Position numbers and translations under genes: made by a program. Positions 2,370 to 36,948 of a stretch of 64,000 nt of DNA are shown one piece after another (the first letter of the stretch is position 1; the number at the start of each line of letters is the position of its first letter). The notes beneath the pieces were generated by a model. It was not told the origin of the DNA. It made no database searches and was given only the letters and a program-made list of their open reading frames with translations. The DNA comes from Streptomyces diastaticus subsp. diastaticus (GTDB lineage: Bacteria > Actinomycetota > Actinomycetes > Streptomycetales > Streptomycetaceae), in the NCBI RefSeq assembly GCF_011170125.1, contig NZ_BLLN01000002.1:901501-965500 (forward strand). The letters run 5' to 3'.

Positions 2370-3671
2370 TCACTCCCCGCCGGGCGGTGTGGTGGCGGAG
2401 GGTTCCGGCGCGGGAGCGGTCTCGTCCTCGGACGGGGTGAAGCCGCGCAGGGTCGGGCTGAGAGTGGCGACCACCGCGACGAGGGCGGTCCCCGCGGCGG
2501 CGGCGACGATCGCCCAGCGGGGGCCGGCCCACTCCATGGTCAGACCGCCGGCGAGGGGGCCGAGTGCCGCGGAGACGCCCGACACCAGTCCGATGATCCC
2601 GCTGAGCCTGCCCCGCAGCCGGTCGGGTGTGGTCAGCAGCTGGTACGTGCTGACCGCCGTGTTGGCGGTCGGGGCGAAGAAGGCCATGCCCGCCAGCAGC
2701 AGGCCCAGGAGGGGGCCGTCGGTCACCGTCAGGGAGACGGGCGCCAGCACCGCCATCGCCCAGAAGACCATCAGCACCGAGTGGCGCTGCCCGAGCAGCC
2801 GGTAGAGGCGCGGGGCGGCGAGGGCGCCCAGGAGGCCGCCGACACCGAACATCGCGGCCATCATGCCGATCTGGCCGGAGGGTACGTCGTCCTGCTGGGC
2901 GGCCATGATGATGACCAGGTAGACGACCTGGAAGAGGAAGTTCAACGCCACCGCGCAGCACGCCGTGACCCGGATCAGCCGGTGCCCCCAGACCCAGCGC
3001 AGTCCTTCCGCGGTCTCCTTCCAGAAGCCCGGCCGGCTCTCTCCGGACTCGGGCCGCGGCGGCTTGGGCAGCCGGATGAAGAGCAGCAGGCAGAAGGAGA
3101 CCACGTGGGCGACGGCGTTGGCGGCGAACGGCAGCAGGTGCTTGACGCCGAAGAGGACGCCGCTGGCACCGGTGCCGAGCAGTTGCCCGATGTTGCTGCG
3201 TGCGTGGTTCATCGAGACGGCGGTGGCCAGTTGCTCCTCGGGGACCACGTGGGGCAGTGACGCCTCCTCAGCCGGGTCGTAGAGGGAGGCGCAGAGTCCG
3301 AGGACGGCGGCGGTGACCACCATGTGCCAGATCTGCACGGTGTCCTGCCAGATCGTCCAGACCAGCAGTCCGAGCACCGTGACCCGGGCGATCTCGCAGG
3401 ACAACATCACCACCTTGCGGTTCCACCGGTCGAGCAGGGTGCCGGCCGGCACGCCCGCGACCAGTTGCGCGGTCGCGTTGACCGCGGCGACCAGCCCGGC
3501 CTGGGCCGGTGAGCCGGTCACCGCCAGCACCAGCAGGGGGAAGGCCATCAAGGTGGCGTTGAACCCGGCCTCGGTGAAGGTCCTGCTCATCCAGAGCAGG
3601 TTGTAGTCGCGGTTGCGCCAGAGCGGGCGGACGTTCCGCTCCGGGTCGAGGGTCCTCCCCTGGACGGCCAT
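2370..3671 (-). CDS. MFS exporter, probable peptide efflux
   Basis: Major facilitator superfamily transporter, 433 aa, with about 12 hydrophobic segments. The loop after TM2 carries the MFS signature GTLLDRWNRKVVM. It resembles actinobacterial multidrug/enterobactin-type exporters (MFS_3). The ATG shares its A with the TGA stop of the upstream NRPS (TGATG), so the two genes are translationally coupled, and this is the last gene of the minus-strand biosynthetic operon. By position it most likely exports the cyclic peptide or gives self-resistance; this is inferred from context only. The C-terminal tail is Pro/Glu-rich and cytoplasmic. Confidence 0.9.
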   Translation of the reverse strand: MAVQGRTLDPERNVRPLWRNRDYNLLWMSRTFTEAGFNATLMAFPLLVLAVTGSPAQAGLVAAVNATAQLVAGVPAGTLLDRWNRKVVMLSCEIARVTVLGLLVWTIWQDTVQIWHMVVTAAVLGLCASLYDPAEEASLPHVVPEEQLATAVSMNHARSNIGQLLGTGASGVLFGVKHLLPFAANAVAHVVSFCLLLFIRLPKPPRPESGESRPGFWKETAEGLRWVWGHRLIRVTACCAVALNFLFQVVYLVIIMAAQQDDVPSGQIGMMAAMFGVGGLLGALAAPRLYRLLGQRHSVLMVFWAMAVLAPVSLTVTDGPLLGLLLAGMAFFAPTANTAVSTYQLLTTPDRLRGRLSGIIGLVSGVSAALGPLAGGLTMEWAGPRWAIVAAAAGTALVAVVATLSPTLRGFTPSEDETAPAPEPSATTPPGGE

Positions 3672-35985: not shown

Positions 35986-36948
35986 ATGCGAAGGCTGCAG
36001 CTGACCGAGGCCGAGCAGGGCGAGATGGACACCCTGGTCGGCCGGTTCCTGGACGCCGGACACGACTGGGACCCGCTGGTGGCCGCCGAGGCCGCCACCG
36101 CCGCGGCCCCCGGACTGCCGCTGAGACTGAGGGAGTTCCTGGCCGGGGCCCGGACCGCGGAGTCCGACATCACGGTGGTCTCCGGTATCCCCCTCGACCC
36201 CGCGCTGGTCCCCACCCCCACCGGGTGGGAGGCGGCGGCCAAGTCGGCCGCGGGGCGCCGGGAGGAGGCCGCGCTGCTGCTCTGCGGCTCGGTCATGGGC
36301 GACGCCTTCGGCTGGGAGAGCCAGCAGGAGGGGCGCATCGTCCACGACATCTGCCCGGCCCCGGGCATGGAGTCCTCACTGACCAGCGCCAGCAGCGAGA
36401 AGACGCTCTCCCTGCACACGGAGGACGTCTTCCACCCGTGCCGCGCCGACTACGTGGCACTGCTGTGCCTGCGCAACCCGGACGGCGTGGGGACCACCGT
36501 CGCCAGCGTCGAGGACGTCGACCTGCCGGCCGAGGTCCGCGGGACGCTCGCGGAGCCGAGGTTCCGCTTCTTCCCCGACGACTCGCACAGCGGACCGGTG
36601 CCGGGCCGCGAGGGCGGTCCCGCCGCCTACCCCGAGGAGCGCGTGCTGTTCGGCCCGGAACACGCGCCGTACCTCCGCTTCGACGTGGACTTCATGGCGG
36701 GCGCCGACGTGGCGGCGGCCGAGGCGGTGCGCGTCACCGACGCCCTGCTGCGGTCCTCGGCGGGGCGGGTCGTGCTCCACCCCGGTGACCTGGTCTTCAT
36801 CGACAACTACAAGGTCGTGCACGGCCGTGACCCGTTCACCCCCCGGTACGACGGGGAGGACCGCTGGCTCAAGCGGGTCAACCTGCTCCGCGACGTCCGC
36901 CGCCTCTACGCCCAGGGCCGGGTCCGCTCCCGGCTCGTCCCCGCCTGA
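35986..36948 (+). CDS. Fe(II)/2-oxoglutarate-dependent amino acid hydroxylase (VioC/AsnO family)
   Basis: Non-haem iron oxygenase, 320 aa, of the clavaminate-synthase-like VioC/OrfP/MppO/AsnO group. The iron ligands are His144 and Glu146 in SLHTEDVFHP and the distal His279 in VVHGRDPFTPRYDG; the 2-oxoglutarate-binding Arg lies in DRWLKRV. HxE rather than HxD is typical of this group. As I recall the families, HTED is closer to the arginine/enduracididine beta-hydroxylases than to the HNEN of AsnO. This agrees with the acidic pocket of A5 (basic residue), although Asn at module 3 is a possible alternative substrate. Beta-hydroxylation of the free amino acid before activation is expected. The start has GGGGGAGAAG upstream. 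It is the last gene of the operon and is followed by a strong terminator. Confidence 0.88.
   Translation: MRRLQLTEAEQGEMDTLVGRFLDAGHDWDPLVAAEAATAAAPGLPLRLREFLAGARTAESDITVVSGIPLDPALVPTPTGWEAAAKSAAGRREEAALLLCGSVMGDAFGWESQQEGRIVHDICPAPGMESSLTSASSEKTLSLHTEDVFHPCRADYVALLCLRNPDGVGTTVASVEDVDLPAEVRGTLAEPRFRFFPDDSHSGPVPGREGGPAAYPEERVLFGPEHAPYLRFDVDFMAGADVAAAEAVRVTDALLRSSAGRVVLHPGDLVFIDNYKVVHGRDPFTPRYDGEDRWLKRVNLLRDVRRLYAQGRVRSRLVPA

Follow-up and report, generated by a model that had tools for sequence, protein, structure and literature searches.

A predicted cyclic hexapeptide cluster with a trans-acting PBP-type thioesterase in Streptomyces diastaticus, related to the mannopeptimycin and cyclofaulknamycin clusters

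What does a nonribosomal peptide synthetase (NRPS) assembly line make when its last module carries no thioesterase (TE) domain? The question is raised by a gene cluster in a 64,000-nucleotide stretch of the Streptomyces diastaticus genome (the window: positions 901501-965500 of one contig in a 7.08-Mb genome of nine contigs). A first-pass annotation of this DNA had described six modules without a starter condensation (C) domain, epimerization (E) domains in modules 2, 4 and 6, no TE domain, and an operon headed by a hydrolase with SxxK and YxN motifs; it had proposed a head-to-tail L-D-L-D-L-D cyclohexapeptide closed by a trans-acting cyclase of the penicillin-binding protein (PBP) type. The described architecture is borne out here, and the proposed cyclohexapeptide remains the best reading, given the catalytic residues of the TE, an E domain in module 6 with none in module 1, and the C-domain tree. 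Overall, the cluster probably builds such a peptide, the residues, cyclization and export being predicted from observed gene content, domain order, catalytic motifs, adenylation (A)-domain codes and conservation in two other species, S. cacaoi and S. monomycini. By mechanism, the cluster belongs to a well-known class. It joins the mannopeptimycin and cyclofaulknamycin clusters as a new relative whose predicted residues differ, and what is new is the residue set together with the combination of tailoring genes.

The assembly line is encoded by two genes on the minus strand. NRPS1 (16264-25941) holds modules 1 to 3, with three A, three thiolation (T) and three C or E domains by Pfam, and NRPS2 (3671-16174) holds modules 4 to 6, with three A, three T and five C or E domains. 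Pfam and our own domain hidden Markov models (HMMs) agree on the order, A-T-C-A-T-E-C-A-T for NRPS1 and C-A-T-E-C-A-T-C-A-T-E for NRPS2. NRPS1 opens with an A domain and has no starter C domain, and NRPS2 ends five residues past its last E-domain match, without a TE domain. The C and E domains carry their active-site motifs; that of C5 reads SHLVLDG, with the second His kept. Because C domains of NRPS2 match with E values as good as 2e-113 and the whole feature set is conserved in two further species, it is not due to chance.

The order of L and D residues can be examined through the C domains themselves. In a quick tree built from the 31 C and E domains of four clusters, with long branches flagged, the 11 E domains split from the 20 C domains. 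The C domains that follow an E domain (C3 and C5) in the window, S. cacaoi and S. monomycini form one clade (Shimodaira-Hasegawa-like approximate likelihood ratio test [SH-aLRT], 100), and C2, C4 and C6 of the same three clusters form another (SH-aLRT, 99). This is the pattern expected of D-to-L and L-to-L condensation types, and with E2, E4 and E6 in place it supports the predicted L-D-L-D-L-D order. The C3 domain of the mannopeptimycin cluster of S. lydicus 103 falls in the after-E clade even though an E domain is missing from module 2 there. Read most simply, this one quick tree suggests that an ancestor of the mannopeptimycin synthetase had an E2 domain, which would have been lost when module 2 became glycine specific.

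Release would fall to the first gene of the operon (26062-27384, minus strand; PF00144), which encodes a stand-alone PBP-type TE of the SurE/Ulm16/MppK family. A separate TE gene beside an NRPS without a TE domain is a trait of the SurE family. The protein aligns almost end to end with SurE (6ksu, residues 8-439, 243 bits, E value 5e-71); by sequence, an alignment reaching residue 439 of 440 covers the C-terminal lipocalin-like domain. Ulm16 (8fek) aligns in two stretches with 228 bits, and the next PDB entry scores 110 bits. The catalytic motifs are GSITK (SxxK), FSYSN (YSN) and the His of GHDG, and SxxK, YSN and GH(D/N)G are kept in all 35 distinct sequences of a 38-row alignment (three rows are repeats), including the TEs of the window, S. 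cacaoi and S. monomycini. PBP-type TEs follow a heterochiral rule, joining an N-terminal L residue to a C-terminal D residue (PMC11735501), and the predicted chain, with an E domain in module 6 and none in module 1, would have the configuration that this rule calls for. TE homologs at an E value of 1e-60 or better occur in 63 of 392 sampled genomes of the genus (the host's own included), the best other one at 49% identity. At 1e-115, none was found beyond the host's own genome among 394 family and 396 phylum genomes, samples that partly overlap that of the genus.

Which residues does this line select? The A-domain codes were read from an A4-anchored alignment, with code positions that we take from GrsA. 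From A1 to A6 they are DAIFMGVGYK, DALWIGGVFK, DLTKVGEVGK, DFWNVGMVHK, DLAESGAIDK and DGSMGAILVK. The A3 code is one that we take to be of the Asn type. That of A4 is exactly the published Thr code (PMC9113097). The codes DAWFLGNVVK, DAMFLGCTYK and DALWIGGTFK are the commonest of Leu, Ile and Val domains, paired by listed order (PMC12283262); A2 is one residue off the Val code, and the A1 codes of the window, S. cacaoi (DAVFMGAVYK) and S. monomycini (DALFMGCIYK) resemble what we read as the Ile code, suggesting an Ile-like residue 1. For a FlkS domain with a capreomycidine-containing product, DLAESGAVDK is given as the Arg/Orn/Lys code (PMC8399532, Table 3), and A5 is one residue off it. The codes thus confirm the Val-Asn-Thr-basic core that had been read at first pass.

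For residues 5 and 6, an A-domain tree of 46 rows adds context. A6 joins the A6 domains of S. cacaoi, S. monomycini and Streptomyces sp. MJM8645 (100/99, with the MJM8645 row flagged for its long branch), and this group next joins the A domain of module 3 from two mannopeptimycin clusters (99/99). A5 lies in an eight-row clade that contains the mannopeptimycin module-5 A domain (100/100). From the known residue order, we take these mannopeptimycin domains to be specific for beta-methylphenylalanine (betaMePhe; module 3) and enduracididine (module 5). The composition of mannopeptimycin has been given elsewhere (PMC11496134).

The gene at 33551-34627 (plus strand; possible start, 33623) encodes a predicted MppJ-like aryl-pyruvate beta-C-methyltransferase, which matches the MppJ structure (4kib) with 298 bits, against 41 bits for the next non-MppJ structure. 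It keeps both His motifs, MGHD and ETAH, and in MppJ we take these two His residues to bind iron. Beside it lies a class I/II aminotransferase gene of the HisC/phenylalanine aminotransferase type (34667-35680, plus strand), whose product clears the cut-off of an NCBIfam HisC subfamily (NF002878, 390 versus 374 bits) and matches a putative phenylalanine aminotransferase structure (4r2n, 249 bits). MppJ methylates phenylpyruvate, and a transaminase then completes betaMePhe (PMC11496134). The MppJ-like methyltransferase and the clustering of A6 with the mannopeptimycin betaMePhe domain together suggest that residue 6 is probably D-betaMePhe.

Residue 5 is tied to the last of the tailoring genes (35986-36948, plus strand), which encodes a VioC-family Fe(II)/2-oxoglutarate hydroxylase, predicted to be an L-arginine 3-hydroxylase. 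Its best structural matches are VioC (205 bits), and its motifs HTE, VHG and FDVD provide the HxE...H site and the DxD pair; we take the roles of the iron-site residues from work on VioC, where the DxD pair presumably binds guanidine. The pair is kept in 7 of 11 distinct hydroxylases, that of the window included; both MppO proteins have DPH, and two others lack it. Asparagine hydroxylation was considered and rejected, the best asparagine oxygenase structure scoring 121 bits against 205 for VioC. Whole-genome searches for the MppR family (PF06314) gave no match in the window genome, S. cacaoi or MJM8645; matches lie inside both mannopeptimycin clusters, and S. monomycini has two on another contig. 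VioD was not found over its cut-off in any of six genomes searched; the host has a distant VioD-like aminotransferase (143 bits, cut-off 391). We set aside enduracididine at residue 5, since the genome has no MppR-family gene and the hydroxylase lacks the DPH of MppO. The kept DxD pair and the two negative searches favor an open chain, and residue 5 is probably L-3-hydroxyarginine.

Altogether, our best prediction for the product is cyclo(L-Ile-D-Val-L-Asn-D-Thr-L-3-OH-Arg-D-betaMePhe), C35H56N10O9, with [M+H]+ at 761.430 (mass computed, formula derived by hand, with Ile as residue 1). In the proposed pathway, the VioC-type enzyme would convert free arginine to 3-hydroxy-L-arginine, and the MppJ-type enzyme would methylate phenylpyruvate, or some other aryl pyruvate, at its beta-carbon to give a keto acid that the aminotransferase would turn into beta-methylphenylalanine. 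NRPS1 and NRPS2 would then link an Ile-like residue, Val, Asn, Thr, the arginine derivative and a beta-methyl aromatic residue, with the E domains turning residues 2, 4 and 6 to the D form. Finally, the PBP-type TE would take the hexapeptide off T6, coupling the free L residue at the N terminus with the D residue at the C terminus, and the major facilitator superfamily (MFS) and ABC transporter genes would probably serve export or host protection.

Several observations weigh against parts of this structure. The assignment of A3 to Asn rather than Asp depends on our taking its code to be of the Asn type. A close variant, DLTKVGHVGK, is given for both Asp and Asn (PMC12283262). The A6 code differs from the mannopeptimycin betaMePhe code at 3 of 10 positions, so tyrosine or tryptophan versions are possible. 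With the mannopeptimycin MppJ copies the methyltransferase shares 42% identity, less than the 46-48% that it shares with uncharacterized proteins, so phenylpyruvate is best taken as a candidate substrate. The hydroxylase misses the NCBIfam cut-offs for both GntD (310.8 versus 345 bits) and VioC (262 versus 418.6 bits), and the VioC family includes a lysine hydroxylase, BifN (PMC13285481). In the TE, alignment places an Ala at the site of SurE Gly235, which could disfavor a bulky C-terminal residue: SurE G235A lost its native activity on C-terminal D-Leu (PMC11735501). However, Ala occupies this site in 31 of the 35 distinct sequences, the window's included, and Gly in four, and at this position the two mannopeptimycin TEs, for which one and the same product is expected, are not alike. 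This residue alone is therefore no predictor of substrate, and we dropped the pocket rule as a guide to the C-terminal residue.

How else might the locus be read? The main rival keeps the same cyclohexapeptide and places a cyclic arginine derivative at residue 5, either capreomycidine, as in cyclofaulknamycin, or enduracididine. Residue 5 could become capreomycidine, as the near identity of the A5 and FlkS codes would allow, and the best model score of the hydroxylase is that of the enduracididine hydroxylase GntD (311 of 345 bits). Also in its favor, the cyclofaulknamycin (flk) aminotransferase gene, XNR_1347, lies outside its cluster and has an 87% homolog in S. lividans (PMC8399532), and the host genome has the distant VioD-like aminotransferase noted above. 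Still, the flk basic module has an E domain whereas module 5 has none, and for flk the suggestion that capreomycidine arises through an E domain is credited to Tryon et al. (PMC8399532). With the VioD and MppR searches negative at the thresholds given above and DxD in place of the DPH of MppO, we judge a cyclic residue to be unlikely, if a serious contender. Mass would tell the two apart, with a computed [M+H]+ of 761.430 for hydroxyarginine and 743.420 for capreomycidine (residue masses, 172.096 and 154.085 Da).

The other alternatives concern residue 6, release and novelty. If the methyltransferase and aminotransferase made 3-methylarginine by the 2-ketoarginine methyltransferase route, A6 would take an ordinary aromatic residue. 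The top NCBIfam match of the methyltransferase is indeed the 2-ketoarginine methyltransferase model, at 71 bits, far under the cut-off of 425; among solved structures, MppJ (298 bits) far outscores the 2-ketoarginine methyltransferases (34 bits), the HisC/phenylalanine type of the aminotransferase does not fit that route, and A6 falls with the betaMePhe domain, all of which make this reading highly improbable. It is hardly less improbable that the TE mainly hydrolyzes the chain and that the main product is a linear hexapeptide: a linear hexapeptide, iso-Faulknamycin, does occur beside cyclofaulknamycin (PMC8399532), yet the five PBP-type TEs characterized in vitro are described as nonribosomal peptide cyclases (PMC11735501), and the TEs of S. 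cacaoi and S. monomycini retain the motifs. There is also a small chance, compatible with the cyclic hexapeptide, that the product is already known under another name in the literature or in MIBiG. Our literature comparison covered part of the matching open papers, with MIBiG and most subscription journals outside it; among the open-literature matches listed (peptides, producers and cyclases), no cyclic hexapeptide of the predicted composition was found.

The first-pass annotation had stated that the tailoring set and core match no nameable product. At the level of the product this stands, within the open literature so compared and leaving MIBiG aside, but the cluster itself has clear counterparts. 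Its domain order is that of the cyclofaulknamycin synthetases of Streptomyces albus, FlkP (A-PCP-C-A-PCP-E-C-A-PCP, where PCP is a peptidyl carrier protein domain) and FlkS (C-A-PCP-E-C-A-PCP-C-A-PCP-E) (PMC8399532). By its published description, flk also shares a stand-alone PBP-type TE (FlkO), an MbtH protein, a VioC homolog (FlkT), an ArsR regulator, kinase/regulator pairs, and ABC and MFS transporters (PMC8399532). The flk codes (Phe, Leu, Val, Arg-like, Thr and Thr) differ from those of the window, with the basic residue in module 4, together with an E domain, and the published cluster description lists no methyltransferase of the MppJ type paired with an aminotransferase; FlkG is described there as a methyltransferase for modification of the core peptide (PMC8399532). 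In addition, flk has mannosyltransferase and sugar transport genes (PMC8399532), unlike the 20 window open reading frames scanned with Pfam, where none was found; no genome-wide search for mannosyltransferases was made.

The tailoring genes listed at first pass are present, and they can be placed: the MppJ-like methyltransferase, VioC-family hydroxylase and MppK-like TE point to mannopeptimycin (mpp), a link that had been missed. The mpp clusters compared (S. lydicus 103 and Streptomyces sp. CB02959) share the MppJ methyltransferase (42% identity), a VioC-family hydroxylase (43-45%), a PBP-type TE (44-46%), and MFS and MbtH genes, all by tblastn (TE identity was 46-49% in the survey of the genus), and they hold the sister A domains of A5 and A6. 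Unlike the window, their order, A-T-C-A-T-C-A-T / C-A-T-E-C-A-T-C-T-E, has no E domain in module 2 and no A domain in module 6; betaMePhe is residue 3 rather than the predicted residue 6, and they contain an MppR-type gene, whereas the window genome has no PF06314 match. The SurE-type cyclase of the mannopeptimycin cluster is MppK (PMC7459860).

Other PBP-type systems are more distant. Ulm16, of ulleungmycin, is a PBP-type TE that cyclizes a hexapeptide substrate (PMC11735501) and the second-best structure match of the window TE. WolJ, of desotamide/wollamide, is likened here by family only. The residues and tailoring of ulleungmycin and desotamide/wollamide are, we assume, different from those of the window cluster. 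The biffamycin A cluster shares SurE-family release and a VioC-family hydroxylase but differs in making a mannosylated tetrapeptide, with a cyclase fused to the NRPS and a hydroxylated Lys (PMC13285481). Surugamide/SurE shares a PBP-type TE as first gene, the absence of a TE domain and a terminal E domain; the surugamide family comprises octa- and decapeptides (PMC7459860), in contrast to the predicted hexapeptide. The same contig carries a second NRPS locus (1155061-1222581), surugamide-like by layout, with 18 modules (5+4+6+3) behind its own SurE-like TE, to which the window TE is 39% identical. We rejected the idea that this second TE is the cyclase of an unusually long assembly line, since 5, 4, 6 and 3 modules is what we take to be the surugamide surA-D layout.

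How widespread is the cluster? A methyltransferase alignment scan of 84,980 species genomes confirmed 106 loci, of which 80 were retained. Two of these, from S. cacaoi NBRC 12748 (81%) and S. monomycini NRRL B-24309 (74%), exceed 70% identity to the window enzyme; none of the remaining 78 is above 48%. Among 199 genomes of the genus, MppJ-type proteins at an E value of 1e-70 or better occur in 16 others, none above 48% identity. S. cacaoi and S. monomycini share the TE (83% and 67%), the ABC pair, and the aminotransferase, MbtH-like, hydroxylase, kinase and ArsR-type genes. Their NRPS layout is identical to that of the window, except that in the S. cacaoi assembly a change of reading frame within A1 interrupts NRPS1, which may reflect a sequencing mistake or a genuine break; the A1 code of S. 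cacaoi comes from the first of the two parts. The cluster of MJM8645 is less closely related (TE, 50%), with A1 and A4 codes that we take to be Phe-like and Gln-like. In Amycolatopsis marina the NRPS layout is nearly the same; its A1 code is Phe-like and its A4 code Arg-like, which brings the order closer to that of faulknamycin, and an MppJ-like methyltransferase and a VioC-like hydroxylase are encoded nearby.

In S. monomycini, A4 carries the Asn code of A3, predicting a change from Thr to Asn at position 4. When module 4 of S. monomycini was compared in 40-residue segments, those with starts at residues 1-381 (C domain) shared 44-72% identity with module 4 of Streptomyces diastaticus and 18-35% with module 3 of S. 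monomycini; for starts at 561-781 (A core), the corresponding values were 21-62% and 56-100%. The C4 and E4 domains group with their Streptomyces diastaticus counterparts (support, 90 and 100), and the T domain is uninformative. This is a clear case, judging by these alignments, of a within-cluster copy of A3 into A4, with C4 and E4 still orthologous. Likewise, A1 and A2 of all three clusters form one clade (100/99), which suggests an older A-domain copy. Whether the three strains hold an undescribed cyclohexapeptide family, with a ring closed at D-betaMePhe, an L-3-hydroxyarginine, an alternating E2/E4/E6 pattern ancestral to the reduced mannopeptimycin layout, and A-domain copying, is to us an evenly balanced question.

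The conserved block extends beyond 2370-36948, a span bounded by the stop codons of an MFS gene and the hydroxylase gene, to which the first-pass annotation had kept. It begins with a sensor histidine kinase gene (347-1639, plus strand; PF13796, PF07730 and PF02518; 78% identity in S. cacaoi, 60% in S. monomycini), a conserved flank of the cluster, and a LuxR-type response regulator gene read by eye from its translation (1621-2295, plus strand, start approximate), and it ends with an ArsR-type regulator gene at the conserved edge (37031-38353, minus strand, start uncertain; PF12840; 59% and 46%). The putative MFS exporter gene (2370-3671, minus strand; PF07690) has a start that overlaps the NRPS2 stop. 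Upstream of the TE gene lie genes for an ABC transporter permease with two FtsX domains (27678-30320, minus strand; PF02687; 77% and 59%) and a MacB/LolD-like ATPase (30324-31064, minus strand; PF00005; NCBIfam matches under cut-off), followed by a gene for a weakly LiaG-like DUF4097 protein (31355-32116, plus strand; PF13349; LiaG model, 25 bits versus a cut-off of 285). Between the DUF4097 and methyltransferase genes, inside the cluster, sits an ISAzo13-type transposase gene (32277-33428, plus strand; PF07592; NF033519, 173 versus 200 bits), with a counterpart at the corresponding site in S. cacaoi (60% identity) and no match in the S. monomycini stretch examined. The earlier gene list had overlooked an MbtH-like protein of 69 amino acids (35759-35968, plus strand), named by eye from its translation and conserved in S. 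cacaoi and S. monomycini. Beyond the cluster lie genes for a MerR-type regulator with a TipAS antibiotic-recognition domain (41355-42176) and an aminoglycoside adenylyltransferase-like protein with an AadA_C domain (43736-44689).

The locus thus yields a concrete structure prediction, testable by mass, for a cyclic peptide near mannopeptimycin, a class reported to be active against resistant Gram-positive bacteria (PMC8399532). Its cyclase is predicted to accept a bulky, beta-branched C-terminal residue despite the Ala that disables SurE, which would put the published pocket rule to the test. The natural A-domain exchange in S. monomycini, with the neighboring C and E domains left in place, may offer a template for NRPS engineering.

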